Source: Streptomyces aurantiacus
Lineage (GTDB): Bacteria > Actinomycetota > Actinomycetes > Streptomycetales > Streptomycetaceae
Length of the DNA stretch: 64,000 nt
Assembly: GCF_027107535.1 (NCBI RefSeq)
Contig: NZ_CP114283.1
Span: 8,556,001 to 8,620,000, forward strand
Direction: 5' to 3'
The notes beneath the pieces are model-generated. The model worked only from the letters and a program-made list of their open reading frames with translations, searched no databases and was not told the origin of the DNA. Below are positions 771 through 47,211 of this stretch, one piece after another; position 1 is the first letter of the stretch, and each line of letters begins with the position of its first letter. Position numbers and translations under genes: made by a program.

Positions 771-1709
771 TCAGACCGCGACCGGCTCGCCTGCGGCCGC
801 CGCGATCTCGGCCTCGGCGACGACGCCCGAGACGCGGCGCAGCTTCTTCATCGGGCCCAGCTCGGACTCGTAGACCTTCTTGACGCCGTCGCCGAGGGAG
901 GCCTCGATGGTGCGGATGTCGCGGACGAGGCGGGTCAGGCCCTGCGGCTCGACCGAGGCGGCCTGGTCGGAGCCCCACATGGCGCGGTCGAGGGTGATGT
1001 GGCGCTCGACGAAGGTGGCGCCGAGGGCGACGGCGGCGAGCGTGGTCTGCAGGCCCGTCTCGTGGCCGGAGTAGCCGATCGGGACGTTCGGGAACTCGGC
1101 CTGGAGGGTGTTGATGACGCGGAGGTTGAGCTCCTCGGCCTTGGCCGGGTACGTCGAGGTGGCGTGGCACAGCAGGATGTTCTCGCTGCCCAGTACCTCG
1201 ACGGCGTGCCGGATCTGCTTCGGCGTCGACATGCCGGTGGAGAGGATGACCGTGCGGTGGGTGGAGCGCAGCGCGCGCAGCAGCTCGTCGTCGGTGAGGG
1301 ACGCGGACGCGACCTTGTGGGCCGGGACGTCGAACTTCTCCAGGAAGGCGACGGCCTCGGTGTCCCACGGGGAGGCGAACCAGGCGATGTTCTTGCTCTT
1401 GGAGTACTCGTCGATCTGGCGGTACTCGTCCTCGCCGAACTCCACGCGGTGGCGGTAGTCGATGTAGGTCATACGGCCCCAGGGGGTGTCGCGCTCGATG
1501 TCCCACTGGTCGCGCGGGGTGCAGATCTCCGGGGTGCGCTTCTGGAACTTCACGGCGTCGCAGCCGGCCTCGGCGGCCGCGTCGATCAGCTTGAACGCGT
1601 TCTCGAGGTCGCCGTTGTGGTTGATGCCGATCTCACCGACGACGTAGACGGGGTGACCCGGGCCGGCGGTCTTCGAACCGAACGTGCGCAGACGGGAGTT
1701 GGTGCTCAT
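771..1709 (-). CDS. neuB: N-acetylneuraminate/Kdn-type synthase (NeuB family) without SAF domain
   Basis: 312 aa. It should condense phosphoenolpyruvate with a six-carbon sugar to give a nine-carbon nonulosonic acid. The TIM-barrel signature is clear: GEIGINHNGD (residues 25-34), DAVKFQKRTPE (51-61), LSTGMST, and GYSGHETG near residue 230. Usual NeuB proteins are about 345-350 aa and end with a roughly 60-residue SAF (antifreeze-like) domain. This one stops soon after the barrel (…VYESELGPMKKLRRV plus about 20 residues), so that domain is absent. ATG 1709 is preceded by AAGGAA. The gene follows the CMP-sugar synthetase by 14 bp, so the two are co-transcribed. The fused phosphatase next door suggests a phosphorylated acceptor. 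Whether the product is Kdn or Neu5Ac cannot be read from sequence. Confidence 0.88.
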   Translation of the reverse strand: MSTNSRLRTFGSKTAGPGHPVYVVGEIGINHNGDLENAFKLIDAAAEAGCDAVKFQKRTPEICTPRDQWDIERDTPWGRMTYIDYRHRVEFGEDEYRQIDEYSKSKNIAWFASPWDTEAVAFLEKFDVPAHKVASASLTDDELLRALRSTHRTVILSTGMSTPKQIRHAVEVLGSENILLCHATSTYPAKAEELNLRVINTLQAEFPNVPIGYSGHETGLQTTLAAVALGATFVERHITLDRAMWGSDQAASVEPQGLTRLVRDIRTIEASLGDGVKKVYESELGPMKKLRRVSGVVAEAEIAAAAGEPVAV

Positions 1710-1723
1710 GGTGAGGAAGTTCC

Positions 1724-3022
1724 TTACTTGTCGAGGGAGTCGAGAGAGGGGCCGAGGATCCAGCTGGCGATCTCTCGGATCGCGCCGTCGCCACCGGGGA
1801 CGGTGGTGACCGCGCGTGCGGCGCCGCGTACGACGTCGTGGGCGCTCGCGACCGCCACGGGCCAGCCGGCGAGGGCGAAGCACGGGAGGTCGTTGACGTC
1901 GTTGCCGACGTAGAGCACGCGCTCGGGCGCGATGCCCTGTTCCTCGCACCACTGCTTCAGCGCGAGGTCTTTCCGGTCGATGCCGTGCAGCACGGGGATC
2001 TTGAGCTTGCGTGCGCGGGCGGCGACGACCGGGTTCTGCTCCGTGGAAAGGATCAGCATCGACAGGCCGCTCCTGCGGAGGGCCGCGATGCCGAGTCCGT
2101 CCCCGCGGTGCACGGAGACGAACTCCTTTCCGTCGGAGTCGATCAGCACCCTGTCGTCGGTCTGGGTGCCGTCGAAGTCGAGGACGACCGCGTCGATGTC
2201 CTCGGCGGTCGGGAGGGTGCCGGGCCGGTTCGCGTCGAAGAGCGGCGCGAGGGCCCGGGCGCGGGCGAGGTCGTGCGGGTCGTCGATCTCCAGGACCCGC
2301 GCGGGGTCGGTGCGGACGAGTTCGGTCCGGCCGAAGAAGCGGTGCTTGTGCTCGCGCAGGCCGGCCGCGTCCATGGCGTAGGCGGCGCCGGTCTCCAGGA
2401 GGTCCTGGGGGCGGTCCTGGCGGCGGGGGCGGAAGGACTTGTCGTGGTTGACCCCGTAACCGCCGTCCGTGGCCGTGGTGTCGGCGACGGCCACGGGGCC
2501 GCCGACGGACCGGGTGCGCCCGGTGTCGACCGCGGCCGGGGCGTCGTCCGCGTCCCGCCAGATGAAGCCGTGGAAGGGCGCCACGGTCAGCGCGGTGTCC
2601 GCGCCGTTCTCCACGACCGCGCCCGCCACCGAGTCGATGTCCTCGCGGACGATGAACGGGCTGGTGCACTGCACGAGGAGTACGGCGTCGACGGTGGAGC
2701 CGTGCCGTGCCTCGTGGACCTCCATGGCGTGCAGGACGGCCGCCTCGGAGGTGGCGGTGTCGCCTGCGATGGCGGCGGGCCGCAGGACGACCTCGGCGCC
2801 GGCCTCGCGGGCGGCGGCGGCGATGGCCTGGTCGTCGGTGGAGACCACGACGTCCGTGACGAGCCGGGCCGCGCGGCACTCGCGCACCGCGCGGGCGACC
2901 AGCGGTACGCCGCCGACGGGGAGCAGGTTCTTGGCGGGCACGCCCTTGGACCCGCCCCGCGCGGGAATCACCGCGAGCACACGGGGCACCGGCCTCAGCC
3001 GCCCCGCTTCGGACTTGGTCAT
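1724..3022 (-). CDS. neuA: CMP-nonulosonate cytidylyltransferase fused to KdsC-like HAD phosphatase
   Basis: 432 aa, two domains. Residues about 13-250 are a CMP-sialate/CMP-Kdo synthetase type nucleotidyltransferase: VLAVIPARGGSKGVPAKN, then LLVQCTSPF, then a core rich in FG/ETGA elements. Residues about 268-432 are a HAD phosphatase with all four motifs visible: DFDGTQTDD (I), LILSTEQ (II), the lysine of GIDRKD (III) and VGNDVNDLP (IV), plus HRGDGLGI as in KdsC. An intact phosphatase next to a synthase suggests a route through a nonulosonate 9-phosphate. ATG 3022 has AGGAG 8 nt upstream. It is translated ahead of neuB. The arrangement resembles animal CMAS, whose C-terminal domain is also KdsC-like but degenerate. 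Confidence 0.88.
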   Translation of the reverse strand: MTKSEAGRLRPVPRVLAVIPARGGSKGVPAKNLLPVGGVPLVARAVRECRAARLVTDVVVSTDDQAIAAAAREAGAEVVLRPAAIAGDTATSEAAVLHAMEVHEARHGSTVDAVLLVQCTSPFIVREDIDSVAGAVVENGADTALTVAPFHGFIWRDADDAPAAVDTGRTRSVGGPVAVADTTATDGGYGVNHDKSFRPRRQDRPQDLLETGAAYAMDAAGLREHKHRFFGRTELVRTDPARVLEIDDPHDLARARALAPLFDANRPGTLPTAEDIDAVVLDFDGTQTDDRVLIDSDGKEFVSVHRGDGLGIAALRRSGLSMLILSTEQNPVVAARARKLKIPVLHGIDRKDLALKQWCEEQGIAPERVLYVGNDVNDLPCFALAGWPVAVASAHDVVRGAARAVTTVPGGDGAIREIASWILGPSLDSLDK

Positions 3023-3170
3023 TACCTGTGCTCCTTGATCGACGGTCGTGGTGCCCCGAAGGGGCGCGGGGCTGTGTCGCGGACGGCTGCGCCGGGTGGG
3101 CGCGAGGGGCCGCGACGAACCCGCGGGTTCAGGACGGCATCGGAGGCGGCACCTCCGGCGCGGGGGAACG

Positions 3171-4556
3171 TCACAGCTCCCCCATCCGCCGGATGACGGG
3201 TGCGACCCGCTGCACCCCGTGCCGGTAGGCGCCCCGCGCCGCCCGGCGCACGATCTGCCGGACCGGGCCCGGCTCCCGGTCGGCGTCGGGCGCGCCGGGC
3301 AGCGGGCTGCCGTCCGGGGCGAGGTGGTGGCGGGCGAGGATGCCGGGCAGATAGCCGGGCGCGGTGGCGGGCGTGTAGTAGGGGGCGAGACCGGGGAGTT
3401 CGTCCCGGCCGAGCAGGTCGGCGATGCGCTCGCGCGCCGCGTCGAAGGCCGTCTCGTAGGAGCCTTGCCCGGACTCCGTCCGGGAGGTGCCCCCAGCGGC
3501 GACGCCCTGCCGGGCCACCCACTCCTCGTCGGGCCGGGGCCCGTGCCCGGCGTCGAGCTGGTCCCAGGAGGCGAGGCAGCCCGAGCCCACGAAGTGGTGG
3601 TTGCCGAGCGACTCGCGCACACCGAGGTCGGTGAGGACGACGGTGGGGATCCGGCGGTGCAGGGACTCGAGGGCCGCCGTGGAGCTGATGGTGACCAGCA
3701 GGTCGGTGCGGTCGAGGACCTCACCCATGTGCCCGTACACGAGGCGGAAGTTGGCGGGCGGGCCGCCCGGGATCCGCTCCGCGAGGCGCTGGTAGGGCTG
3801 CTCCTCGATGTGCGTGGTGTGCTCGCCCGGCTTGGAGCGGAGCTTCAGCAGGACCTCGCGGTCCGGGTGCAGCCTGGCGTGCTGCACGAGCCGGTTCAGC
3901 AGGTACGTACGGTCCTTGCGGCTCTCCGGCACGGAGGGCTGCGCGGCGAAGACGACCGTGTAGGGCCTGCGCCCTTGCTTCGCAGACGGGTCGTGCTTCT
4001 CGTACGGGTCGCCGCCGAGGAACGGCAGCGCGACCTCGGTCACCGAGGAGGCGTCGGCGCCCACTCCCTCGTACACGGCGGTGAAACGGTCCGCGTCCTG
4101 GCGGGAGTTGGCGAGGACGAGGTCCGCGCCGTGCCGCAGCAGCAGCCCGTCGGCGAGCTTCTCGTAGACGACGCCGACATAGCCGGTGACGACCACGGGC
4201 CGCTTCGCGCCGCCCGTCGCGGGCCGCTCCCGCCACTGGTGGGAGAGCCCGTGCAGCATCGCCTGGACGCCGCCTCCGACGAGGGAGAGCACGACGACGT
4301 CGTACGAGGACCGTGCGCGGGACATCTCCCGCAGGAACTCCGCGGCGGTGACCTCCCGCAGGGAGTCCGCGCGGACGCCGACCTCTTCGAGCTGGCGGGC
4401 GGTGGGGGTCGCACGGCCCCGCAGGAGGTAGCCGTCGAGCCTGATGTCCGAATCGGCCGGTGCGATACGGTTCGCGGTGAGCGCGCCCCATTTCCACCGT
4501 GTGTCGGAATCGGCGAGGACGGCCACTCGCAGGGACTTCTTGGTACTTGCTGGCAC
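3171..4556 (-). CDS. Putative glycosyltransferase (DUF6716-like) of the glycopolymer cluster
   Basis: 461 aa from GTG 4556 (an in-frame TTG at 4595 would add 13 residues). It opens with a Rossmann-like segment (SLRVAVLADSDTRWKWGALT). The middle has VVLSLVGGGVQAMLHGL and GADLVLANSRQDADRF, and a GT-B-like C-terminal half has FRLVYGHMGEVLDRTDLLVTISSTAALESL. That last segment resembles the donor-binding region of UDP-sugar or CMP-glycerol type transferases. It is head of the leftward operon with neuA and neuB and divergent from the GT2 gene. GTG 4556 is chosen because a TAGCGT box ends 7 nt before it and no Shine-Dalgarno is visible. Substrate unknown; the DUF name is from memory. Confidence 0.7.
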   Translation of the reverse strand: MPASTKKSLRVAVLADSDTRWKWGALTANRIAPADSDIRLDGYLLRGRATPTARQLEEVGVRADSLREVTAAEFLREMSRARSSYDVVVLSLVGGGVQAMLHGLSHQWRERPATGGAKRPVVVTGYVGVVYEKLADGLLLRHGADLVLANSRQDADRFTAVYEGVGADASSVTEVALPFLGGDPYEKHDPSAKQGRRPYTVVFAAQPSVPESRKDRTYLLNRLVQHARLHPDREVLLKLRSKPGEHTTHIEEQPYQRLAERIPGGPPANFRLVYGHMGEVLDRTDLLVTISSTAALESLHRRIPTVVLTDLGVRESLGNHHFVGSGCLASWDQLDAGHGPRPDEEWVARQGVAAGGTSRTESGQGSYETAFDAARERIADLLGRDELPGLAPYYTPATAPGYLPGILARHHLAPDGSPLPGAPDADREPGPVRQIVRRAARGAYRHGVQRVAPVIRRMGEL

Positions 4557-4754
4557 ACCCAAGACGCTAGGAAGCCATTTCGATCCCCGGCCCAACCTGA
4601 AAGCAACAAAGGGTTAACAGCACGTCGCCGAATGGCGAATCGGCCCCGGATCGGCTTGCCAAAAGGCCTGGTTCACCATTCCGCCACGCGTCGTTCACCT
4701 GGCATCTCACCGGGGGTCAAGACGAATGCCGGGCCGCCGCCTAACGTCACGTGG
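4557..4754. promoter_or_regulatory. Divergent promoter region of the glycopolymer cluster
   Basis: 198 bp separates two divergent GTG starts. Leftward, the minus strand carries TAGCGT (4569-4564), then 7 nt, then GTG 4556. Rightward, TAACGT (4742-4747), 7 nt, then GTG 4755. Both fit a -10 box (TANNNT) with transcription starting at the start codon, giving leaderless mRNAs. No convincing -35 boxes are seen. The segment around 4600-4700 is less GC-rich than its flanks. Confidence 0.5.
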
Positions 4755-5732
4755 GTGGTCAAGCTCTCCGTCATCGTGCCGTTCTACAACGTGCAGCAAT
4801 ATGCGCCCGACACCCTGAAGAGTCTGCGTGCGAACGCACGCGACGACTTCGAATTCATTCTCGTCGACGACTGCTCCCGCGACGAGACGCCGGACATCCT
4901 CGCGCGCGCGGAGCGCGAGCTCCCGGGTGCGGTGCATGTCAGACACGAGAAGAACGGAGGGCTGGCCACCGCGCGCAACACGGGCATCGACGCGGCGCGT
5001 GGCGAGTACCTCACGTTCCTCGACGGGGACGACTGGCTCGCCCCCGGGTACTACGAGCAACTCCTCGCCTCCATCGAGGACCTGGGGTGCGACTTCGTCC
5101 GCACGGACCATGTCCAGTGCACCGCGCGGGCCCGCACCGTCCACCGTGTCCCGCACGGCAGGCGCGGCGTCGTACTGGATCCGCGCGAGGCGATCCTGCC
5201 CGCCGACCGCTCCACGTCCGTCGACTACGCGTACGCGTGGGCGGGCATCTACCACCGCCGGCTGGCCGACCGGGGCCTGCTGCACTTCACCGACGGGCTG
5301 CGCACGGCCGAGGACCGGCCGTGGATCTGGAGGCTGCACCGGGAGGCGGAATCGTTCGCCGCGGTGGGACTGCTCGGTGTGTTCTACCGGCGCGGTGTCG
5401 CCTCCTCACTGACGCAGATCGGTGACGTACGGCAACTGGATTTCATTCGCGCGTTCGACCAGGTGGTAAGGGAAACGGCGCAGGACCGGGATGCGGATAA
5501 ACTCCTGCCGAAAGCCGTCCGGACCTACTGTGCGATTATTTCCCATCATCTGGGATCCATCGAAAGGTTCGAGCCACCTGTGGCACGGAAACTGAAATCG
5601 ATGAGTGCCGTCGCATTGCGGCGTATGCCGCAGGATGTCCTCGACGACGCCCTCGACTCCATGGACATACAGCGCGCGACGCGGCTGCGCCGGCTGCGCC
5701 GCCGTCCGGCGGCCGCGGGGGTGACCGCGTGA
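4755..5732 (+). CDS. Glycosyltransferase family 2
   Basis: 325 aa. GT-A fold glycosyltransferase: LSVIVPFYNVQQY (residues 4-16), FILVDDCSRDET, GGLATARNTGIDAARGEYLTF and the metal-binding FLDGDDWL, followed by a C-terminal helical region and an Arg-rich tail. No membrane segment, so it should act on the cytoplasmic face. GTG 4755 is chosen because homology starts right there and TAACGT lies 7 nt upstream. The reading frame is open further upstream, but that part is antisense to the divergent gene. It overlaps the next gene by 4 bp (GTGA), so they are translationally coupled. It likely adds a linker or backbone sugar of the nonulosonate polymer. Confidence 0.85.
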   Translation: MVKLSVIVPFYNVQQYAPDTLKSLRANARDDFEFILVDDCSRDETPDILARAERELPGAVHVRHEKNGGLATARNTGIDAARGEYLTFLDGDDWLAPGYYEQLLASIEDLGCDFVRTDHVQCTARARTVHRVPHGRRGVVLDPREAILPADRSTSVDYAYAWAGIYHRRLADRGLLHFTDGLRTAEDRPWIWRLHREAESFAAVGLLGVFYRRGVASSLTQIGDVRQLDFIRAFDQVVRETAQDRDADKLLPKAVRTYCAIISHHLGSIERFEPPVARKLKSMSAVALRRMPQDVLDDALDSMDIQRATRLRRLRRRPAAAGVTA

Positions 5733-7063
5733 CGACCCGGATCTTCATGGCGTCGACGCTGTACGGCACGGCGACGCTCGCCGCGGCCGTCGACGCCGAC
5801 TGCTTCCGTCCCGCGGACCGGCGCGTGCTCCTCGTGTCCAACAACTCGGCGACGCCCGAGACGACACCCGGGGTCGACGAGATGCCCGGGTTCGGGCAGC
5901 TGCGCGGCCGGTTCGACGACGTGATCTCGTGGAACGAGACCATCTCCCCCTTCCACCCGGGCGGTTGGGCCCCGCGGCCCGACGACGTGCCGCTGTGGGA
6001 GCGGCATCTGCGGCTCGCCTGGGGTCTCGGCGACGACGACGTCGAGCTGGTCGTCGAGTCGATCCAGGTCAATCCGGCGCTCGGCGTCGCACAGATCTTC
6101 ACGGGCGCGCCCGTCACCGTCTACGCGGACGGCCTGATGAGCTACGGCCCCACCCGCAGCAAGATCGACCCGCTGGTCGGCACACGCATCGACCGTCTCC
6201 TCCACCTCGACCTGGTTCCGGGGCTGACACCGCTGCTGCTCACCGAGTTCGGGGTGCGGCCGGAGCTCGTTCCGACCGACGCCTTCTCGAAGGTGCTCAC
6301 CGAACTCGTCGACACCGGTGACGAGTTGCCCGCGATCGACGAACCGGCCCTGCTGCTCGGCCAGTACCTCTCCGCCCTCGGCATCCTCACCGCCGAGGAG
6401 GAGGAGGACCTCCACGTACGGATGCTCAGGGGCGCCGTCGAACTCGGGCACGAGCGGGTGGTGTTCAAACCGCACCCCAGCGCACCGGCCCGCTGGTCGC
6501 GCGCCCTGGAGAAGGAGGCCGAGCGGATCGGCGCCGACCTCACGGTGCTCGACACCCCCGTCCTCGCCGAGGTGCTCTACCAGCGGATGCGTCCCGCGCT
6601 GGTCGTCGGCTGCTTCTCGACCGCGCTGCTCACCGCCTCCGCGCTGTACGGCCTGCCCGTCGCCCGCATCGGCACCGGGCCGCTCCTGGAACGCCTCACG
6701 CCGTACGAGAACAGCAACCGCGTCCCGGTCACGATCGTGGACGCCCTGCTGCCGGAGCTGACGGACCGCGCGGCGGTCACCGAGCAGCGCCGGAGCATGG
6801 GCCCGGACGAACTGTCCGAGCTGGTACGGGCCGTGGGCTACGCCATGCAGTCCAAGATCTACCCGGACGCGCGGTCCGACGCCGAGCACTATCTGACGCG
6901 GCGTCTGGACACCCACACCTGGCGCTACTTCAAGCGACGGCGGCTCACCTCGCTGGGGCTGCCCGGGGCGGTGCCGGCCCAGCTGGCGTTCATCCCGCGC
7001 AACGCGACCGTACGGCGTGTGGCCAAACGCGCCCGTTCCCTGAAGAGGGCCACCCTGGGATGA
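5729..7063 (+). CDS. Alpha-2,8-polysialyltransferase family protein
   Basis: 444 aa. It resembles bacterial polysialyltransferase-type enzymes: TRIFMASTLYGTATLAAAV at the N-terminus, VTVYADGLMSYGPT (acidic-G motif) near residue 135, and VVFKPHPSAPA (the HP motif) near residue 250. VVGCFSTALLTASALYG follows. It presumably polymerises CMP-activated nonulosonic acid onto the wall polymer. It starts at GTG 5729 overlapping the GT2 stop and overlaps the acyltransferase start by 4 bp (ATGA). Together with the truncated gene at the left edge, the locus has two polyST-like proteins, so one may initiate and the other extend. The C-terminus is basic (RRVAKRARSLKRA), which may help membrane association. 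Confidence 0.8.
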   Translation: MTTRIFMASTLYGTATLAAAVDADCFRPADRRVLLVSNNSATPETTPGVDEMPGFGQLRGRFDDVISWNETISPFHPGGWAPRPDDVPLWERHLRLAWGLGDDDVELVVESIQVNPALGVAQIFTGAPVTVYADGLMSYGPTRSKIDPLVGTRIDRLLHLDLVPGLTPLLLTEFGVRPELVPTDAFSKVLTELVDTGDELPAIDEPALLLGQYLSALGILTAEEEEDLHVRMLRGAVELGHERVVFKPHPSAPARWSRALEKEAERIGADLTVLDTPVLAEVLYQRMRPALVVGCFSTALLTASALYGLPVARIGTGPLLERLTPYENSNRVPVTIVDALLPELTDRAAVTEQRRSMGPDELSELVRAVGYAMQSKIYPDARSDAEHYLTRRLDTHTWRYFKRRRLTSLGLPGAVPAQLAFIPRNATVRRVAKRARSLKRATLG

Positions 7064-8205
7064 GTTTCGTCGAATCGGCGCCCGCTCCGGCGTCCACCGC
7101 CGAGGCGGGCACCCTGCCCCCCGTCCCCCCTCGGATACTTCCCCAGAAGCGCGCGCCGCGGCTGCGCGCGCTCGACGGGCTGCGGCTGATCGCCGCGCTG
7201 ATGGTCGCCGTGTACCACTACGGCGGCCGGGACGGCGAGGTGAGCCGGGCCTGGGGTTCCTCGCCGCAGATCCAGTTCCCCACGCTGCACACGTGGTTCG
7301 CGTACGGCTGTCTGGGCGTGCAGATCTTCTTCGTGATCAGCGGCTTCGTGATCTGCATGAGCGGCTGGGGGCGGAGCCTGCGTTCGTTCTTCGCCTCGCG
7401 GGCCTCGCGGCTGCTGCCGTCGTACTGGGCGGCGGTCGTCCTCGTCACGGCCGTCTTCGCGCTGCCCGTGGTCGTGTACGAGGCCGTGTCGCCCAGTGAC
7501 GCGCTGGTGAACCTGACGCTCATGCAGCAACCGCTGGGCGCCGACCGGGTGCTGGGGGTCTGCTGGACGCTGTGGGCGGAGGTCCGCTTCTACGCGCTGT
7601 TCGCGCTCTGTGTGGTCCTGCCGGGCGCGACGCGGCAGCGCGTGATCCTGTTCTGCGCGGGCTGGACGCTCGCCGCGGTGATCGCCCAGGAGGCGCGGGA
7701 GCCGCTGCTCGACCTGGTCCTGATGCCCGAGTACGCGCCGTTCTTCATCGGCGGCATCGGTCTCTACCTGGTCCACCGCGACCGGCGGGACGCGTACGCG
7801 TGGGGCATCGTGGGCGTCAGCTGGCTGATCGGGCAGCACTACGCGGTGGCGCAGCTGTGGCACCCGCCCGACCCGCAGTTCTTCTCGAACCGGAGCTCGG
7901 CCGGCATCATCCTCGTCGTCACCCTCGGCTTCGTGGCGGTCGCCGCGATCGCGCTGGGCCTGCTGAACCGCGTGAACTGGCGGTGGCTGACGGTGGCCGG
8001 CGCGCTGACGTACCCCTTCTACCTGGTCCACGAGCATCTGGGCTGGGTCGCCATCAGGGCCTACCACCAGGGCCTGGGCATCCCCTCGTACGTGACGATG
8101 CCGCTGACGGTCCTGACGATGCTGGTCCTGGCCTGGCTGCTGAACCGCTATGTCGAGGACCGCTTCACCCCGCGGCTGCGCTCGGCGCTGTCGAAACCGC
8201 GCTGA
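7060..8205 (+). CDS. Acyltransferase family 3 (membrane O-acyltransferase)
   Basis: 381 aa multi-pass integral membrane protein. PRLRALDGLRLIAALMVAVYHYGG (residues 27-50) carries the family-3 signature with the catalytic-type histidine after the first helix. GVQIFFVISGFVICMSGWG and FFASRASRLLPSYWAAV follow, and about ten hydrophobic helices span the rest. Such proteins move acetyl or other acyl groups across the membrane onto exported glycans. Its 4-bp overlap with the polyST-like gene makes O-acylation of the nonulosonate polymer the simplest role. The 3' end overlaps a small opposite-strand ORF by 58 bp. Confidence 0.87.
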   Translation: MSFVESAPAPASTAEAGTLPPVPPRILPQKRAPRLRALDGLRLIAALMVAVYHYGGRDGEVSRAWGSSPQIQFPTLHTWFAYGCLGVQIFFVISGFVICMSGWGRSLRSFFASRASRLLPSYWAAVVLVTAVFALPVVVYEAVSPSDALVNLTLMQQPLGADRVLGVCWTLWAEVRFYALFALCVVLPGATRQRVILFCAGWTLAAVIAQEAREPLLDLVLMPEYAPFFIGGIGLYLVHRDRRDAYAWGIVGVSWLIGQHYAVAQLWHPPDPQFFSNRSSAGIILVVTLGFVAVAAIALGLLNRVNWRWLTVAGALTYPFYLVHEHLGWVAIRAYHQGLGIPSYVTMPLTVLTMLVLAWLLNRYVEDRFTPRLRSALSKPR

Positions 8206-38027: not shown

Positions 38028-39383
38028 GTGCCCGCCATGAAAAAGACCGCCAAGTCGTCCTTGCTGGTCACCTCCGCCACGCTGTTGTCGTTCTCGCTCG
38101 CGCTCACGGTGACCGCCACCGGGCCCGCCGCAGCGGACGACAAGCCGACCCCGACCCCGTCGGCGACACCCTCGGGCTCGGCATCGCCGTCGAGCAGCGC
38201 GTCGAGCGACGCGTCGACCAGTCCTTCGGCGACACCGCCGGCGAACATGTCGACCGTGGGCGGCGCCCAGCTCGGCCGGCCCGGGACCCAGGCGAACCTC
38301 GGCGCCGGCGCGCCGGTCCTCCCGAAGGGCCTGAGCGCCCGTTCCTGGATCGTCGCGGACGCCGAGTCCGGCGCGGTCCTGGCCTCGCACAACGCGCACT
38401 GGCGGCTGCCCCCGGCGAGCACCCTGAAGATGCTGTTCGCCGACACGCTGCTGCCCAAGTTCCCCAAGACGCAGAAGCACAAGGTCACGTCGTCCGACCT
38501 GGCCGGCGTCGGCGCGGGCTCCAGCATGGTGGGCATCAAGGAGGACGAGACGTACTCGGTCCACGACCTGTGGCTCGGCGTCTTCCTTCGCTCCGGCAAC
38601 GACGCCGTCCACGTCCTGTCCGCCATGAACAAGGGCGTCGACCAGACCGTCAAGGACATGAACGCGCACGCCGAGGAACTCCAGGCGCTCGACACGAACG
38701 TGGTGAGCCCGGACGGCTACGACGAGAAGCGCCAGGTGTCGTCGGCGTACGACCTGACCCTGTTCGCCCGCTCCGGCCTGCAGAGGAAGGACTTCCGGGA
38801 GTACTGCTCGACGGTCCGCGCGAAGTTCCCCGGCGAGACCAAGAAGAACAAGAAGGGCAAGACCACCCGCGGGTCCTTCGAGATCCAGAACACCAACCGG
38901 CTGATGACCGGCGACTACGGTCTCGACGCCTACAAGGGCATCGCGGGTGTGAAGAACGGCAACACGACGAACGCGGGTGCGACCTTCACGGGGGTTGCCG
39001 AGCGCGACGGCAAGGTGCTGCTCGTCACGGTGATGAACCCGGAGAAGGAGGAGCACGACGAGGTCTACAAGGAGACCGCCAAGCTCCTCGACTGGGGTTT
39101 CCAGGCGTCCGGCAAGGTCGACCCGGTGGGCGAGCTGGTGCCGCCGAAGAGCGCGGACACGGGCTCCCAGCCGGGCGCGAACGCCTCCGGTGAGGCCGGG
39201 GGTTCGGGCGACGGAGAGGCGGGCTCGGCGAAGCCGGTGGCGGCCTCGGCCGAGACGAGTGGTTCCGGTGGCGTCGGGATCGCCCTGGCGATCACCGGCG
39301 GCGTCCTCGTGCTCCTCGCCGCCGGTGTCTTCGTGATCAACCGCCGCTGGCCGCTGCCCGAGTTGATGCGTCGCCGCCGCTGA
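38028..39383 (+). CDS. D-alanyl-D-alanine carboxypeptidase (penicillin-binding protein, class A-like)
   Basis: 451 aa from GTG 38028; TACGTT ends 7 nt upstream, so the mRNA may be leaderless (ATG 38037 is an alternative). Signal peptide, then a Ser/Pro/Thr-rich linker of about 50 residues, then the serine DD-peptidase domain: nucleophile in PPASTLKML (SxxK), SGN in LRSGNDAVH, and KNG in GVKNGNTTNAG where most relatives have KTG. A Gly/Ser linker and a C-terminal helix with RRWPLPELMRRRR anchor it outside the membrane. It trims the terminal D-Ala of peptidoglycan stems. Its 3' end overlaps the convergent BrkB gene by 47 bp. Confidence 0.93.
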   Translation: MPAMKKTAKSSLLVTSATLLSFSLALTVTATGPAAADDKPTPTPSATPSGSASPSSSASSDASTSPSATPPANMSTVGGAQLGRPGTQANLGAGAPVLPKGLSARSWIVADAESGAVLASHNAHWRLPPASTLKMLFADTLLPKFPKTQKHKVTSSDLAGVGAGSSMVGIKEDETYSVHDLWLGVFLRSGNDAVHVLSAMNKGVDQTVKDMNAHAEELQALDTNVVSPDGYDEKRQVSSAYDLTLFARSGLQRKDFREYCSTVRAKFPGETKKNKKGKTTRGSFEIQNTNRLMTGDYGLDAYKGIAGVKNGNTTNAGATFTGVAERDGKVLLVTVMNPEKEEHDEVYKETAKLLDWGFQASGKVDPVGELVPPKSADTGSQPGANASGEAGGSGDGEAGSAKPVAASAETSGSGGVGIALAITGGVLVLLAAGVFVINRRWPLPELMRRRR

Positions 39384-40296
39384 CCCCCGCTGAGCCGTCC
39401 GCCCCGCCGGCCCCGTCCGTCTCGTCCGTCCCGTCCGGTGGGGACGTGTCCTCGTGCGGTGTCGCGGTCCAGGCGGCACAGAAGAGCAGCAGCTTGGACG
39501 TGAAGTTGATCCACAGCAGCAGCGCGACGGGCACACCGAACGCCCCGTACATGCTCTTCGCCGCGACTCCCTGGATATAGCCGCTGAGCAGCAGTTTCAG
39601 CAGTTCGAACCCGGCCGCGCCGATCAGCGCGGCGACGATCAGCCGTCGCCGCTCCGGCTGGACGCCGGGGAGCAGCGTCAGGAGGTACAGGAGCAGCAGG
39701 AAGGCGGCGAGGACGGCCACGGCGAACGCTGCCACCCTCAGCAGCACCCCGCCCCAGCCGCCCTCGTCGATGCCGAGCTGCCGGGTGGTCCAGCCCACGG
39801 CGGTCGACGCGAGGGTGGAGGCGGCGATCGTGACGAGTGCGGCGCCGCCGAGGCCGACGAGTACGCCGGCGTCCTTGAGTTTGTGCAGGAAGGGGTTCTC
39901 CTCCTCGTCGGGCAGCTCCCATACCGCACGCAGGCACTCGCGCATCGAGCCGACCCAGCCGATGCCGGTGAACAGCAGCAGGGCGCCCGCGATCAGTCCG
40001 ACCGTGCCGGCGTTGTCGACGAGGGCGCCGATGTCGAGCTGTTCGGCGATGCCGGGGATCTGCTCGGCGATCTTGTCCTCAAGCGTCTTCACCCCCTTCT
40101 CGTCGAGGGTCGCGGCGGCGATCGCGGCGGCCACGGTGATCAGCGGGAAGAGCGCGACGAAGCTGATGAAGGTCATCGCAGCGGCGAGCCGCGTCCACTT
40201 CACCCGGTCCAGTCGTTCGTACGAGCGCCAGGCGTGCGTGGTCATCAGCCGTGCGACCAACGGGCCCACACCGGGGAGCTTTTTCAGCCAGTCCAT
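39337..40296 (-). CDS. YihY/BrkB-family inner membrane protein
   Basis: 319 aa from ATG 40296. The family signature RLAAAMTFISFVALFPLITVAAAIAA is near residue 45, followed by six membrane helices including LIAGALLLFTGIGWVGSMRECLRAVWE and LLLLYLLTLLPGVQPERR. The C-terminal 45 residues are acidic and Gly/Ser/Thr-rich. The role is unclear; the family was once annotated as RNase BN. Its start overlaps the GtrA gene by 13 bp, tying it to the leftward run from PAP2 through UbiA and GtrA. Confidence 0.9.
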   Translation of the reverse strand: MDWLKKLPGVGPLVARLMTTHAWRSYERLDRVKWTRLAAAMTFISFVALFPLITVAAAIAAATLDEKGVKTLEDKIAEQIPGIAEQLDIGALVDNAGTVGLIAGALLLFTGIGWVGSMRECLRAVWELPDEEENPFLHKLKDAGVLVGLGGAALVTIAASTLASTAVGWTTRQLGIDEGGWGGVLLRVAAFAVAVLAAFLLLLYLLTLLPGVQPERRRLIVAALIGAAGFELLKLLLSGYIQGVAAKSMYGAFGVPVALLLWINFTSKLLLFCAAWTATPHEDTSPPDGTDETDGAGGADGSAGVSGGDASTRAAASGG

Positions 40297-40748
40297 GATC
40301 CGACTCTGCCCTCGCCTCGGAAAACCAATGTCCGGGTACCCCAAAAACGCAGGACGGTGGCGAGCACCATGCCGATTCCGGCGCCCGACACGGTGTCCGC
40401 GCGCGGGGAGGTGAACCCGAGACCGTAGTGGCTGACCAGGATGCACAGCAGCTGGACCAGGGCGCCCGCGATGTTCACGACGAAGAAGATCCCGTACTGG
40501 GAGAGGCTCCTGGAGGCGTGCCGGTAGGTGCCGAGCGCGTTGCCCGCGTAGGCGACCGAGCAGCCCGCCACGAACGACAGCGATTTGGCGGTCAGCGGGT
40601 CCAGGCCGGCCGGGCCGCGCAACCAGAGGAAGAGGGCGAGGTCGGCGGCGTACGCGAGGAGCCCGGCGGCGGCGAAGCCGAGCACTTCCGGGGCCTTGGG
40701 GCGCCGGGCCCGTGGCCGGGGGGCGTCCAGCTGCTGTGCGTGGCTCAC
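40284..40748 (-). CDS. GtrA-family membrane protein
   Basis: 154 aa, four membrane helices (EVLGFAAAGLLAYAADLALFLWL, SLSFVAGCSVAYAGNALGTYRH, FFVVNIAGALVQLLCILVSHYG, GAGIGMVLATVLRFWGTRTLVF). The GtrA fold is linked to lipid-linked sugar handling. Its GTG 40748 overlaps the UbiA stop (GTGA). In mycobacteria a GtrA protein (Rv3789) sits next to DprE1 and has been linked to arabinan assembly, so its place in this cassette is notable. Confidence 0.88.
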   Translation of the reverse strand: MSHAQQLDAPRPRARRPKAPEVLGFAAAGLLAYAADLALFLWLRGPAGLDPLTAKSLSFVAGCSVAYAGNALGTYRHASRSLSQYGIFFVVNIAGALVQLLCILVSHYGLGFTSPRADTVSGAGIGMVLATVLRFWGTRTLVFRGEGRVGSWTG

Positions 40749-41683
40749 CAGTTGGCCACCGCCAGGCCGTACATCGTGAGCCATGCCACGCCGATGACGG
40801 CGAGCGCGCGGTCGCGCAGGATCACGTCCTCCGGTTCACCGGCGGTGCCCCGGTCGGCGAAGACCGCGTACCGCAGGACGGCGAGGATGAAGGCGATCAT
40901 CGACAACTGTCTCCAGGGCAGCACGCTGGTGTGCGGCACACCGCCCTCTTCCAGGGCCCACAGGCAGTAGCCGAGGACGGCGACCGAGGCGGCGAGCTGC
41001 CAGACGAAGCGCAGGTAGCCGGTGGTGTACTCGGTGAGCAACGCGCGCGTGGCGCCCGCTTTGCCGGCCATCTGGACGGCTTCCGAGTAGCGCTTGGCGG
41101 ACACCATGAAGAGGGCGCCGAAGCCGGTCGTGATGAGGAACCAGCGGGACAGCGGGATGTCGAGCGCGACCCCTCCGATCATGGCCCGCATCAGGAATCC
41201 GGTGGTCACCACGGCGAGATCGACGACCAGGACGTGCTTGAGGCTGAGGCAGTACGCGAACTGCAGGCCCAGGTAGGCGGTCAGCAGCGCCGAGGTCACC
41301 GGCGAGCACAGGAAGGCGGCCGCGGTCGGGGCGACGAGGGCGAGCACGATGCCCACGCAGTAGGCGACCGGTACGGGCACCTGCCCGGCGGCGACCGGCC
41401 GGTGGCGCTTGACCGGGTGGGCGCGGTCGGCGTCGGCGTCCCGCGCGTCGTTGACCAGGTAGACGCTCGCCGCACAGGCCGTGAACAGTACGAACACGAG
41501 CGCGACTTGAGTGAGGGCGTGCCGTGAGAAGAGTTCGCCCGCGGCGGCCGGGGCCGCGATCACGAGCACGTTCTTGACCCACTGTTTGGGCCGGGCGGTC
41601 CTGATCAGCCCCTTCAGGAGGCCACTTTTCCGCGGAGCGGTCTGTTTCCCGCGTGTCCTCTCCAGGAGGGCCGTCTCAGCCAT
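40745..41683 (-). CDS. Decaprenyl-phosphate phosphoribosyltransferase (UbiA family)
   Basis: 312 aa with about eight membrane helices. RTARPKQWVKNVLV precedes the first Asp-rich motif YLVNDARDADADRAHPVKRHRP, typical of the DPPR-synthase branch (Rv3806c type) rather than quinone prenyltransferases. TGFLMRAMIGGVALDIPLS and SKRYSEA are further family blocks. It should transfer 5-phosphoribose from PRPP to polyprenyl phosphate. The start overlaps the PAP2 gene by 8 bp. Together with PAP2, DprE1 and DprE2 it completes an arabinose-donor pathway. Confidence 0.9.
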   Translation of the reverse strand: MAETALLERTRGKQTAPRKSGLLKGLIRTARPKQWVKNVLVIAAPAAAGELFSRHALTQVALVFVLFTACAASVYLVNDARDADADRAHPVKRHRPVAAGQVPVPVAYCVGIVLALVAPTAAAFLCSPVTSALLTAYLGLQFAYCLSLKHVLVVDLAVVTTGFLMRAMIGGVALDIPLSRWFLITTGFGALFMVSAKRYSEAVQMAGKAGATRALLTEYTTGYLRFVWQLAASVAVLGYCLWALEEGGVPHTSVLPWRQLSMIAFILAVLRYAVFADRGTAGEPEDVILRDRALAVIGVAWLTMYGLAVANW

Positions 41684-42197
41684 GGTCGCGGCCCCTTGTC
41701 ATCCAGCGGGCGCCGAGCCGGGCCGTCACCGCGCCGAGGGCGGCGCCCGCCGCCACGTCCGACGGGTAGTGGACGCCGACGACGAGCCGCGACACGCACA
41801 TCGCGGCGGCCAGTGGGGGCACCGCGCGGGCGCCGAGCGCTCCGAAGGCCACGGCGGCCGCGGCGGCGGAGCTGGCGTGCGCGCTGGGGAAGGAGTGCCG
41901 GCCCGCGGTGCGGACCAGCGGCTCGACGTGTTGGGGGCGCGGGCGGCGTACGAGTCGTTTGACGCCCATGCCGGCGAGGTGCGCGCCCGCGGTCAGGGCC
42001 GTGCCGCGCAGCCAGGCGCTTCGCCGCTCCCGGTCCACGGCGGCTCCCGCGAGGCCCGCCGCGAGCCACAGCGCACCGTGCTCGCCGGCCAGTGACAGGA
42101 CCCGCGCGGCGGCGGCGACGCTGGGGACGGCGGCGCGGGCGTGGAGGGCCGAGAGGATCCGGTGGTCCAGGTCAGGGAGCTCGTCGTGGTGATCCAT
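41676..42197 (-). CDS. PAP2-family phosphatase (DPPR phosphatase candidate)
   Basis: 173 aa. The three phosphatase motifs are complete: KRLVRRPRP, SFPSAHASS and SRLVVGVHYPSD, set among membrane helices. The mycobacterial counterpart at the same position beside DPPR synthase (Rv3807c) is proposed to remove the 5-phosphate from decaprenyl-phosphoryl-5-phosphoribose. It starts at ATG 42197 and overlaps the UbiA gene by 8 bp. It is divergent from dprE1 across a 132-bp promoter region. Confidence 0.88.
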   Translation of the reverse strand: MDHHDELPDLDHRILSALHARAAVPSVAAAARVLSLAGEHGALWLAAGLAGAAVDRERRSAWLRGTALTAGAHLAGMGVKRLVRRPRPQHVEPLVRTAGRHSFPSAHASSAAAAAVAFGALGARAVPPLAAAMCVSRLVVGVHYPSDVAAGAALGAVTARLGARWMTRGRDHG

Positions 42198-42286
42198 GGG
42201 GACTCACTGTTCACGTCAACACCGCTGGAACTCCGGCAATATTGAGCGACATCCCATTAATCACCCATTTCGGGGAGAGAAGTGAT

Positions 42287-42322
42287 GTTAGGGAACTAAC
42301 AGTCCCTTTTGGTCGATACGGT
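42287..42322 (+). promoter_or_regulatory. Putative dprE1 promoter with inverted repeat
   Basis: An inverted repeat GTTAG-GGAA-CTAAC (42287-42300) covers the expected -35 region. A -10-like TACGGT (42317-42322) ends 7 nt before ATG 42330, which would give a leaderless mRNA. The region between 42198 and 42329 must also drive the leftward PAP2-UbiA run. Confidence 0.45.
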
Positions 42323-42329
42323 CACTTGC

Positions 42330-43685
42330 ATGCCTACCGACACGGTTTCCGTCACGGGGTGGGGCCGCACCGCACCCACCGCCGCCCGCCTGGTGCGCCC
42401 CCGTACGTACGAGGAGGTCGTGGCGGCCGTGCGGGGATGCGGAACCCGCGGGGGCATCGCCCGGGGGCTGGGACGGGCGTACGGGGACGCGGCACAGAAC
42501 GCGGGCGGGGCCGTGCTCGACATGACGGCCCTGGACCGCGTCCACGCGATCGACGCGGACGGCGGGACCGTGCTGTGCGACGCCGGTGTCTCGCTGCACC
42601 GCCTGATGGAAGTCCTGCTGCCGCTGGGCTGGTTCGTGCCGGTGACCCCGGGGACCCGCTATGTGACGGTCGGCGGGGCGATCGGCGCGGACATCCACGG
42701 CAAGAACCACCACGTGGCCGGTTCCTTCGCCCGGCACGTCCTGTCCTTCGAGCTGCTGACCGCGGACGGCGAGATCCGTACGGTGAGCCCCGGTACCCCG
42801 CTGTTCGACGCCACGGCCGGTGGCATGGGCCTGACCGGTGTCATCCTCACGGCCACCGTCCGACTGCATCCGGTCGAGACGTCGTTGATGTCCGTCGACA
42901 CGGAACGGGCCACGGACCTGGACGACTTGATGGCCCGCCTCACGGCCTCCGACCACCGCTACCGCTACTCGGTCGCCTGGATCGATCTGCTGGCCCGTGG
43001 CGCGGCCGTGGGACGCTCGGTGCTGACCCGGGGCGACCACGCCCCCCTGGAGGCGCTGCCCGACGCCGCACGCGCGCGTAGAGCCCCGCTGGAGTTCCGT
43101 CCGGGGCGCCTTCCCGCGGCCCCCTCCTTCGTCCCCGAGGGCCTGCTCGGCCGTACGGCGGTCGGTCTCTTCAACGAACTCTGGTACCGCAGGGCGCCCC
43201 GCGCGCGCGGCGGTGAACTGCAGCGGATGTCCACCTTCTTCCACCCGCTCGACGGCGTGCCGCACTGGAACCGGATCTATGGGCGCGGCGGTTTCGTGCA
43301 GTACCAGTTCGTCGTCGGACACGGCGGGGAGGAGGCCCTGCGCCGGATCGTGCACCGCATCTCGCAGCGCCGCTGCCCCTCCTTCCTCGCCGTCCTGAAG
43401 CGGTTCGGTGCGGGCGACCCCGGCTGGCTGTCCTTCCCGATGCCCGGCTGGACCCTCGCGCTGGACATCCCCGCGAACCTGCCGGGGCTCGGCGGCTTCC
43501 TCGACGAGCTGGACGAGGAGGTGGCCGCGGCCGACGGGCGTGTCTACCTCGCCAAGGACTCCCGGCTGCGGCCGGAACTGCTCGCGGCGATGTATCCGCG
43601 GCTCGACGCGTTCCGGGCGCTGCGCGCGGAGTTGGACCCGCGGTCCGTCTTCACCTCCGACCTGTCCCGGCGCCTCGGGCTCTGA
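42330..43685 (+). CDS. dprE1: Decaprenylphosphoryl-beta-D-ribose 2'-oxidase (DprE1)
   Basis: 451 aa. FAD-binding oxidase of the vanillyl-alcohol oxidase type: ARGLGRAYGDAAQNAGGAVLD, VTPGTRYVTVGGAIGADIHGKNHHVAGSF and the C-terminal YLAKDSRLRPELLAAMYPR. It should oxidise the 2'-hydroxyl of polyprenyl-phosphoryl-ribose to the keto form. Around the position of Mycobacterium tuberculosis Cys387 (PGWNVCVD) this protein reads PGWTLALD, with alanine instead of cysteine. ATG 42330 is chosen over an upstream TTG because homology begins there. DprE2 follows after 54 bp. Confidence 0.93.
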   Translation: MPTDTVSVTGWGRTAPTAARLVRPRTYEEVVAAVRGCGTRGGIARGLGRAYGDAAQNAGGAVLDMTALDRVHAIDADGGTVLCDAGVSLHRLMEVLLPLGWFVPVTPGTRYVTVGGAIGADIHGKNHHVAGSFARHVLSFELLTADGEIRTVSPGTPLFDATAGGMGLTGVILTATVRLHPVETSLMSVDTERATDLDDLMARLTASDHRYRYSVAWIDLLARGAAVGRSVLTRGDHAPLEALPDAARARRAPLEFRPGRLPAAPSFVPEGLLGRTAVGLFNELWYRRAPRARGGELQRMSTFFHPLDGVPHWNRIYGRGGFVQYQFVVGHGGEEALRRIVHRISQRRCPSFLAVLKRFGAGDPGWLSFPMPGWTLALDIPANLPGLGGFLDELDEEVAAADGRVYLAKDSRLRPELLAAMYPRLDAFRALRAELDPRSVFTSDLSRRLGL

Positions 43686-43739
43686 CCTGAGCCGCCCCGC
43701 CTGCCCGGTTCTCCCACCCTCTCCCCAGGAGTTCGCTTC

Positions 43740-44495
43740 ATGAAGGACGCTTTCGGCCTCCCCCAGTCCCTGCTCGTCCTCGGCGGCACCTCCGAGATCG
43801 CGCTCGCCACGGCGCGGCGGCTGATCGCCCGCCGTACCCGCACGGTGTGGCTCGCGGGCCGCCCCTCGCCCGGCTTGGAGGCGGCCGCCGCCGGGCTGCG
43901 CGAGCTCGGCGCGGACGTGCGTACCGTCGACTTCGACGCGCTCGATCCCGACGCCCACGAGCCGGCTCTCGGCAAGGTCTTCGCGGAGGGCGACATCGAC
44001 ATGGTCCTGCTCGCGTTCGGTGTCCTCGGCGACCAGTCGCGCGACGAGAACGAGCCCGGCGCCGCCGTGCGGGTCGCACAGACGAACTACACGGGCGCCG
44101 TGTCGTCGGGGCTGGTGTGCGCGCGGGCGCTCCAGGAGCAGGGGCACGGCTCCCTGGTGGTGCTCTCGTCGGTGGCGGGCGAGCGGGCCCGCCGCGCCAA
44201 CTTCATCTACGGGTCCAGCAAGGCGGGCCTCGACGCCTTCGCCCAGGGGCTGGGGGACGCGCTGCACGGCACGGGCGTCCACGTGATGGTCGTGCGTCCC
44301 GGGTTCGTCCGCTCGAAGATGACGGAGGGGCTGGCGGAGGCCCCGCTCGCGACGACTCCCGAGGCGGTGGCCACGGCCATCGAGACGGGCCTGCGCCGAC
44401 GCTCCGAGACGGTGTGGGTGCCGGGGGTGCTGCGGGTGGTCATGTCGGCGCTGCGGCACGTACCGCGGGGGGTCTTCCGCCGCCTGCCCGTCTGA
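43740..44495 (+). CDS. dprE2: Decaprenylphosphoryl-2-keto-ribose reductase (DprE2, SDR family)
   Basis: 251 aa. The cofactor motif LVLGGTSEIALATARRLIARR is at residues about 11-31. VVLSSVAGERARRANFIYGSSKAGLDAF contains catalytic Ser, Tyr and Lys (YxxSK). It should reduce the DprE1 product with NADH, completing epimerisation to polyprenyl-phosphoryl-arabinose. AGGAG lies about 9 nt before ATG 43740. It is co-directional with dprE1, and a hairpin follows after 116 bp. Confidence 0.92.
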   Translation: MKDAFGLPQSLLVLGGTSEIALATARRLIARRTRTVWLAGRPSPGLEAAAAGLRELGADVRTVDFDALDPDAHEPALGKVFAEGDIDMVLLAFGVLGDQSRDENEPGAAVRVAQTNYTGAVSSGLVCARALQEQGHGSLVVLSSVAGERARRANFIYGSSKAGLDAFAQGLGDALHGTGVHVMVVRPGFVRSKMTEGLAEAPLATTPEAVATAIETGLRRRSETVWVPGVLRVVMSALRHVPRGVFRRLPV

Positions 44496-44638: not shown

Positions 44639-45217
44639 TCAGCGGGCCGGGAGCGGGCCCCGCTCCACGTGCGACGCCTGCGGCGGCACGATGGCGCCCC
44701 CGAAGACGTAGTCGCGCAGCCTGCGCCACACCCCGTCGGACCCCTGCTCGTAGAGGGCGAAGCCCGTGCACGGCCACTGGGCCTCGTACTCCGCGAGCTC
44801 CTCGAAGGCGCGGTCCATCGCCTCGTCGGCGATGCCGTGCGCCACCGTGACGTGGGGGTGGTACGGGAACTGCAGCTCGCGCGCCACGGGCCCGGAGGCG
44901 TCCCGGACCTGCTTCTGCAGCCAGGTGCAGGCCTCGGCACCCTCGACCACCTGCACGAACACGACGGGTGACAGCGGACGGAACGTCCCCGTCCCGTTCA
45001 GCCGCATCGAGAAGGGGCGGCCGGCGGCCGCGACCTCGACGAGATGCGCCTCGATCGCGGGCAGCGCCGACCGGTCGACCTCGGTCGGCGGCAGCAGCGT
45101 GACGTGGGTGGGAATGCCGGAAGCCGCGGGGTCGCCGAAGCCCTCGCGCCGCTGCTGGAGCAGGCTGCCGTGTGGCTCCGGGACCGCGATCGACACACCG
45201 ATCGTTACGGTCCCCAC
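44639..45217 (-). CDS. 2'-5' RNA ligase/cyclic phosphodiesterase-like protein
   Basis: 192 aa from GTG 45217, preceded by AGGAG. It has the two HxTx motifs of the 2H phosphoesterase superfamily: PTHVTLLPPT (residues about 35-44) and HPHVTVAHGI (about 123-132). Family members cleave or ligate 2'-5' or 2',3'-cyclic phosphates in RNA or nucleotides. The C-terminus is YVFGGAIVPPQASHVERG. It is monocistronic and lies between dprE2 and trpS. Confidence 0.85.
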   Translation of the reverse strand: MGTVTIGVSIAVPEPHGSLLQQRREGFGDPAASGIPTHVTLLPPTEVDRSALPAIEAHLVEVAAAGRPFSMRLNGTGTFRPLSPVVFVQVVEGAEACTWLQKQVRDASGPVARELQFPYHPHVTVAHGIADEAMDRAFEELAEYEAQWPCTGFALYEQGSDGVWRRLRDYVFGGAIVPPQASHVERGPLPAR

Positions 45218-45385
45218 GTCGTCTCCTGTCGTTGTGTCGGTGTTCCGTCGTGCTGTTGTCCCCGGCGCACAGAGGCTGGCGCCGGTCCGGCTATCGACTG
45301 TACGGCGGTGCGGCCCCGTACAGGATGTCGTGCCGGTGTTGTCCTGGTCTCGTCCGGCCGCCGTACGGGGTTCCCTTACCACCGG

Positions 45386-47211
<1,826 letters not shown>

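Follow-up and report, generated by a model that had tools for sequence, protein, structure and literature searches.

In mycobacteria and corynebacteria, decaprenyl-phosphoryl-arabinose (DPA) is made by a set of proteins comprising Rv3806c, Rv3807c, DprE1, DprE2 and Rv3789. Scanning named genomes for AftB, the terminal beta-(1->2)-arabinofuranosyltransferase, we kept the best 80 of 539 loci, of which 31 were from Streptomyces, 29 were mycobacterial and 20 were others. In 29/29 of the mycobacterial loci, genes for UbiA and a PAP2-family phosphatase adjoined that of AftB; the flanks fetched, up to 10 kb long, showed no DprE1/DprE2. Here we compare with this system a 64,000-nucleotide stretch of Streptomyces aurantiacus (NZ_CP114283.1, positions 8,556,001 to 8,620,000; hereafter the window), in which gtrA, ubiA and a PAP2 gene on the minus strand and dprE1 and dprE2 on the plus strand form a cassette of five adjacent genes. 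On balance, this cassette probably makes polyprenyl-phosphoryl-arabinofuranose, which membrane glycosyltransferases of the GT-C type (an AftB homolog or a protein that we call X9, with an AftD homolog) would put on a glycopolymer of the cell surface, wall teichoic acid being the likeliest.

The wall polymers of S. coelicolor are described in the consulted portion of a review (PMC7831098) as a teichulosonic acid of Kdn (3-deoxy-D-glycero-D-galacto-non-2-ulosonic acid) and a minor polydiglycosylphosphate, with no arabinose mentioned in that portion. Among the open PMC papers, as far as their text was covered, no report of this pathway in Streptomyces was found; subscription journals lay outside the search. 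Some Streptomyces proteins already carry the database label 'terminal beta-(1->2)-arabinofuranosyltransferase'. The genes are thus on record; what the covered part of the open PMC literature did not yield is the pathway, its history across the genus or a link with teichoic acid.

Enzymes of the five-gene cassette

The likeness to the DPA pathway lies in the enzymes. UbiA, DprE1 and DprE2 passed NCBIfam equivalog cut-offs, catalytic positions are kept, and PAP2 and GtrA, placed by Pfam family only, stand alongside (Table 1). The closest solved relative of UbiA was a decaprenyl-phosphate phosphoribosyltransferase (8j8j, E = 1.8e-81), with which it has the stretch NDxRDxxxD...HPxKRxRP in common; that of DprE1 was the mycobacterial DprE1 (4aut, E = 4.6e-124). 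The original prediction, made from the letters of the window, had named UbiA, PAP2, DprE1, DprE2 and GtrA as neighbours forming a complete polyprenyl-phosphoryl-arabinose pathway, and the family and equivalog scores and solved relatives bear this out. Its span for the cassette, 39337-44495, ended correctly but began too early, since 39337 falls in a YihY/BrkB gene; the cassette occupies 40284-44495. Its comparison 'as in mycobacteria' holds for the enzymes and only loosely for the layout: all five genes are contiguous here, in two divergent arms, whereas the mycobacterial ubiA and PAP2 genes lie beside that of AftB.

As in mycobacteria, UbiA would join phosphoribosyl pyrophosphate to polyprenyl phosphate, PAP2 would remove the 5-phosphate, and DprE1 would oxidise and DprE2 reduce C2 (ribo to arabino), the expected product being polyprenyl-phosphoryl-beta-D-arabinofuranose. 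PAP2 is presumably the polyprenyl-phosphoryl-ribose-5-phosphate phosphatase; it matched its superfamily, with no NCBIfam equivalog model above cut-off, and we liken its role to that of Rv3807c. GtrA, a candidate accessory protein or flippase acting on the polyprenyl-phosphoryl sugar, may help to display the lipid on the outer side. GT-C transferases in the membrane could then move arabinofuranose onto the glycopolymer; transfer would fall to the AftB homolog, or to X9 as its counterpart by position, and branching to the AftD homolog.

Distribution and probable stepwise loss of the cassette

We examined 150 Streptomyces genomes, the source genome included, with thresholds of at least 470 bits for DprE1 and at least 345 bits for UbiA. 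UbiA, DprE1 and DprE2 occurred together in 56 of them (full-cassette genomes), DprE1 and DprE2 in 26, DprE2 only in 26 and none in 41. An earlier statement on Streptomyces, in the part of the source consulted, rested on one species, S. somaliensis; here DprE1 reached 470 bits in 82/150 genomes, in 78 of them above the curated cut-off, and UbiA and DprE2 were found above cut-off in 57/150 and 108/150. The gene sets were nested, the lone exception being G060 with UbiA alone. In three full-cassette genomes (G008, G014 and G099) UbiA and DprE1 lay on different contigs; G147, with DprE1 split across two contigs, was counted as DprE2-only, and G004 and G076 carried a degenerate dprE1. The UbiA of G060 (L126, G060:C10:256242-257144), the sole one of the 150 to exceed the cut-off for decaprenyl-phosphoryl-5-phosphoribose (DPPR) synthase with no strong DprE1 or DprE2, has neighbours unlike those of the cassette.

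Across the class Actinomycetes, UbiA was above cut-off in 98/296 genomes; at the E-value threshold the count was 99/296, representing 46/114 genera. Around 20 UbiA loci from other actinomycete families, UbiA, DprE1 and DprE2 lay within 20 kb of one another in 18, and UbiA and DprE1 in 19. Because all three genes are present in 56/150 genomes and clustered in 18/20 loci, their clustering exceeds chance, and by the class-wide counts the pathway extends beyond the mycolic-acid bacteria. Ten proteins near UbiA were scanned at class level, giving one AftD (L224) and four matches to the MmpA family model (NF053599, 414-469 bits, cut-off 210), which lie near DprE2 or UbiA in L224, L225, L238 and L240; AftB had no match in these UbiA loci (L221-L240).

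The 20-kb surroundings of 20 DprE1 matches, spanning close and divergent ones, pointed to one site. The whole cassette lay between yihY and ligT-trpS in L031-L033 and at another location in L034 and L035. In L036-L050, dprE1-dprE2 stood at the yihY-trpS site, and ubiA, PAP2 and gtrA were not found in the 20 kb. All of the DprE1+DprE2 genomes (24/26) and DprE2-only genomes (22/26) examined carried their genes there. The yihY flank was conserved in L031-L033, L036-L050 and 20 DprE2-only loci, and the ligT-trpS flank was likewise conserved across loci of this site. Nine further UbiA-less loci (L137-L145) all kept the flanks, and three of them held remnants: pieces of UbiA and GtrA in L137, of GtrA in L140, and of UbiA and PAP2 in L144. 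The GtrA remnants in L137 and L140 are its C-terminus, gtrA having been lost together with UbiA/PAP2 in DprE1+DprE2 loci. L146 and L147 have a degenerate dprE1 beside dprE2, and dprE2 itself is interrupted in L218. In a tree of the flanking proteins (50 rows, built by a quick method), 8 changes were needed for the DprE1+DprE2 state and 9 for the DprE2-only one; for each state, starred branches carried at least 7. Given the remnants and the nested gene sets, we infer that the direction was loss, not gain.

The DprE1 active site follows the presence of UbiA. In 48 distinct full-cassette genomes of the 56 (all except G008, G014, G027, G036, G045, G058, G085 and G094), 14 positions in or near the active site were unchanged (44-48 read per position), among them 58, 130, 132, 331, 333, 364 and 416, which correspond to catalytic residues of Mycobacterium tuberculosis (Mtb) DprE1. 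In 24 UbiA-less DprE1s, Lys132 (Mtb 134) was kept in 2, Tyr58 in 7, Gln331 in 10, Lys364 in 15, Lys416 in 18 and His130 in 19, Lys132 being among the earliest residues lost. At 150 positions common to 35 full-cassette rows (32 distinct genomes) and M. smegmatis, an older UbiA-less clade of 16 retained a mean of 84.5%, and five losses that are presumably recent retained 97.6%. The DprE1 tree needed 7 changes of state, 5 of them forced by starred branches; loss of UbiA with decay of the site thus happened repeatedly, in at least 5 lineages. The most frequent substitutions (K to R, Y to C or H, Q to R, W to R, H to R) could each arise by a single AT-to-GC transition, a pattern that may reflect relaxed constraint and base bias rather than a common new function. 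One position distinguishes even the intact enzymes from the mycobacterial one: residue 384 is Ala in 44/44 full-cassette genomes with data, at the place of the mycobacterial Cys387, the covalent benzothiazinone target.

Based on hand-picked near pairs, the ratio of nonsynonymous to synonymous substitution (dN/dS) of DprE1 was 0.12-0.23 for full-cassette and 0.18-0.50 for UbiA-less pairs; that of DprE2 was 0.12-0.17 for full-cassette, 0.03-0.30 for DprE1+DprE2 and 0.26-0.39 for DprE2-only pairs. Ser144, Tyr157 and Lys161 of DprE2 were present in 6/6 full-cassette copies checked; they were kept in 23/24, 24/24 and 24/24 DprE1+DprE2 loci and in 21/22, 19/22 and 22/22 DprE2-only loci (L146 and L147 included). 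An intact DprE1 site where UbiA is present, and its decay where UbiA is gone, are evidence that the cassette works as one pathway, and selection appears to maintain the intact cassette as a whole. Orphan DprE2 probably still acts on some substrate, which may be a different one. At the trpS site (L036-L050, L137-L147 and L199-L218), orphan DprE1 with its decayed site and orphan DprE2 with a mostly intact one persist.

Scoring 158-189 bits with the DPPR model, a divergent UbiA family (L112-L125) is at most a candidate replacement for the DPPR synthase in DprE1+DprE2 genomes, a role that we did not accept, because it belongs to a different recurrent cluster and occurs also in genomes without DprE1. 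Named by eye, that cluster holds GT2-like proteins, an 8-transmembrane protein and an epimerase-like protein.

Arabinosyltransferases and teichoic-acid loci

Unlike the mycobacterial and corynebacterial system, the source genome had no match to Emb (PF04602; Corynebacterium glutamicum control positive), AftA (PF12250) or GlfT2 (PF17994). Among the 150 genomes, AftA occurred in 2 (G022 and G122, both with the full cassette) and GlfT2 in none, with a positive control for the latter in C. glutamicum or Lactococcus lactis (one above cut-off). By these markers, the acceptor is therefore not mycobacterial arabinogalactan. The genome-wide search for GT-C arabinosyltransferases that the original prediction had proposed returned AftB and AftD homologs and neither Emb nor AftA. 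Both homologs lie 7.0-7.3 Mb from the window on the same contig, and its claim that the window itself holds no arabinosyltransferase stands for the subset of window genes scanned.

The AftB homolog resembles AftB over the GT-C part, with a conserved DD motif, and is matched in the C-terminal region too; its listed relatives carry PF26371. With the 536-aa piece of AftB in L219, a mycobacterial-type locus, as query, we found AftB in 16/150 genomes, all 16 among the 56 full-cassette ones. It differs from the mycobacterial AftB in its surroundings: ubiA adjoined it in 0/31 Streptomyces loci, as against 29/29 mycobacterial ones, among the best 80 of 539. Beyond Streptomyces, the same 80 included homologs in Embleya, Allokutzneria, Amycolatopsis, Nonomuraea, Actinomycetospora, Streptosporangium and a Streptosporangiaceae strain, and in metagenome-assembled genomes labelled Myxococcales, Thermomicrobiales and Chloroflexi (L257-L259, L263, L266, L269, L272, L277, L282, L285, L286, L289, L291, L307 and L327).

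AftB and X9 are placed in teichoic-acid loci. In G088 and G138 the locus that holds the cassette includes genes of the teichoic-acid type, and its flanks match those of the source genome's teichoic-acid locus; AftB lies within it, ~16 kb from the cassette. In the source genome, that locus contains X9. By tblastn, X9 was found in 12/14 full-cassette teichoic-acid loci vs 1/7 DprE1-less ones, all chosen for holding a GT87 gene; one further DprE1-less locus gave a 48-residue match, perhaps a remnant. Among the best 80 AftB loci, 10/31 of those from Streptomyces had both TagF proteins within 10 kb, and in 9 of these 10 AftB occupied the slot of X9, directly followed by Y12. S. viridochromogenes DSM 40736 is one of the named species with AftB in a teichoic-acid locus. 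X9 itself was not found in these AftB-TagF loci. AftB followed by Y12, X9 followed by Y12, and no X9 beside AftB therefore make AftB and X9 positional alternatives. Y12 (L182:6614-8191) and its relatives, a 526-aa membrane protein with no Pfam match, follow X9 or AftB in many teichoic-acid loci.

X9 belongs to no Pfam or NCBIfam family and, unlike ArnT, PglB and other GT-C transferases, had no sequence match to a solved GT-C structure. Its predicted model (pLDDT 84.8) adopts a GT-C fold, matching PglB, ArnT, AftA, AftD, EmbB and AftB, with oligosaccharyltransferases and ArnT as the best. A shared fold shows no donor; from its position and co-occurrence, X9 may use polyprenyl-phosphoryl-arabinose. 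Among the best 120 of 446 X9 homologs, every entry naming an organism names Streptomyces. Two other genes of the teichoic-acid locus were tried as markers and rejected: DprE1 occurred in 27/52 genomes with a close homolog (>400 bits) of its GT87 gene vs 55/98 others, and its PMT_2 gene was found in 10/14 full-cassette vs 5/7 DprE1-less loci, without association or contrast.

These results support an arabinose-containing glycan as the likely sink of the donor, as the original prediction had expected. Instead of teichoic acid, that sink could be a lipoglycan resembling lipoarabinomannan, with AftD and GT87-type GT-C enzymes as the transferases. AftD, an alpha-(1->3)-arabinofuranosyltransferase, has a homolog in the source genome with both PF11847 and CBM_AftD, which aligned with 6wbx at E = 2.5e-141 (residues 29-1372) and has a GT4 glycosyltransferase nearby (L249). 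AftD occurred in 61/150 genomes, including 33/56 full-cassette ones, and GT87-type homologs in 133/150. However, it is AftB, rather than AftD, that co-occurs strictly; AftB and X9 sit in loci with TagF and TagGH homologs; and no Emb-type transferase was found in the source genome. We regard a lipoglycan as an unlikely sink.

Less probable again is a donor that serves the arabinosylation of secreted proteins or a natural product, the wall context being coincidental. Arabinofuranosylated pilins and polyketides are known, GT-C enzymes glycosylate proteins too, and the best structural matches of X9 include oligosaccharyltransferases. Against this stand the conserved chromosomal site beside trpS in most loci examined and the teichoic-acid loci that hold AftB or X9. 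Finally, a vestigial pathway from an arabinan-bearing ancestor, being lost and serving no current glycan, would fit the stepwise loss in many lineages, the gene remnants and the lack of Emb in the source genome and of GlfT2 in the 150, but is highly improbable in view of the unchanged DprE1 site in the 48 full-cassette genomes, the low dN/dS and a decay that follows UbiA loss, so that intact cassettes appear to be under selection now.

Several points weigh against transfer from the cassette's donor to teichoic acid. What the sequences show is the identity of the enzymes, that their active sites are intact, that the genes are lost and occur together, where AftB and X9 stand, and that the X9 model has a GT-C fold; predicted from these are the products of the reactions, what PAP2 and GtrA do, the donor used by X9 and the acceptor. 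The AftB homolog scored 264 bits with NF041481 (equivalog cut-off 1050), and we claim a homolog, not an equivalog; the truncated AftB of L219, at 575 bits, is likewise under the cut-off. AftB is present in only 16/56 full-cassette genomes, and 8/56 are without AftB, AftD and X9. AftD, which lies away from the cassette, occurs also in 14/26 DprE1+DprE2, 3/26 DprE2-only and 11/41 'none' genomes, and X9 in 8/26 DprE1+DprE2 genomes and in 5 genomes without strong DprE1; neither is therefore strictly dependent on this donor. In 21/31 Streptomyces loci, AftB did not have the two TagF homologs nearby by the same 10-kb criterion, and no teichoic-acid gene lay in the 9 kb fetched around the source genome's AftB, leaving only X9 in a teichoic-acid locus. 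The named species entered that scan by AftB, not by the cassette, and the co-occurrence tests (Fisher and hypergeometric) are uncorrected for kinship.

With these points in the balance, we still favour teichoic acid as the acceptor. A wider generalisation, which we hold at slightly under an even chance, is that many Streptomyces arabinofuranosylate their wall teichoic acids, with the AftB homolog or X9, a new arabinofuranosyltransferase family, filling the GT-C slot and the trpS-site cassette feeding it; the cassette would have been dismantled repeatedly from the yihY side, DprE1 and DprE2 persisting without substrate supply and maybe in new roles. If true, arabinofuranose would be a wall component outside the mycolate bacteria, on a different backbone, and the harmless and genetically tractable Streptomyces would offer a place to study the DPA enzymes, the acceptor and the function of X9. 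Repeated UbiA loss followed by decay of the DprE1 site is a natural test of dependence on the pathway, and the orphan DprE2 that survives raises a well-defined question of enzymology.

Coordinates and neighbouring genes

Table 1. Features of the cassette, its flanks and the distant transferase genes (window positions, except those given by genome and contig)
Feature	Position	Strand	Evidence
GtrA-family membrane protein	40284-40784	-	PF04138 73 bits, cut-off 26
UbiA-type DPPR synthase (polyprenyl-phosphate 5-phosphoribosyltransferase)	40745-41683	-	NF008978 436 bits, cut-off 207
PAP2-family phosphatase	41676-42197	-	PF01569 64 bits, cut-off 27
Gap between divergent ubiA and dprE1 arms	42198-42329	.	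gene orientation, sequence
DprE1, polyprenyl-phosphoryl-beta-D-ribose 2'-oxidase	42309-43685 (open reading frame as listed)	+	NF053785 692 bits, cut-off 500
DprE2, polyprenyl-phosphoryl-2-keto-erythro-pentofuranose reductase (short-chain dehydrogenase/reductase)	43740-44495	+	NF053786 382 bits, cut-off 250
YihY/BrkB membrane protein, outside cassette, left flank of conserved site	39337-40446	-	PF03631 162 bits
LigT-like 2'-5' RNA ligase-fold protein, outside cassette, right flank	44639-45382	-	PF13563 100 bits
TrpS, outside cassette, right flank	45386-46681	-	sequence read by eye
Teichoic-acid locus of source genome	G000:C2:935-955 kb		two TagF-type proteins (PF04464 364, 425 bits), TagGH-type ABC genes
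X9, GT-C protein (predicted fold)	G000:C2:947667-948974	-	in source genome's teichoic-acid locus
AftB homolog, 589 aa	G000:C2:1257770-1259539	-	sole match in the PDB: AftB (9dlf, in two stretches, E 4.9e-69)
AftD homolog, 1503 aa	G000:C2:1614148-1618659	-	PF11847 750 bits; CBM_AftD 56.5 bits

Within the cassette, the ATG at 42330 is probably the start of DprE1, rather than the listed 42309. The divergent arms suggest a presumed promoter function for the gap between them; no sigma-70-type match was found in it. Further genes in the teichoic-acid locus of the source genome encode a GT2, a GT87 and a PMT_2-like protein that scores under its cut-off.

Elsewhere in the window (771-8205) are nonulosonate genes encoding NeuB, a cytidylyltransferase, a DUF6716 glycosyltransferase and a polysialyltransferase-like protein (~0.8-7.1 kb), followed by an acyltransferase. 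The possible link between the arabinose donor and a nonulosonate polymer, raised in the original prediction, found no support: nothing was seen that ties these genes to the cassette, their co-occurrence with it not having been examined.

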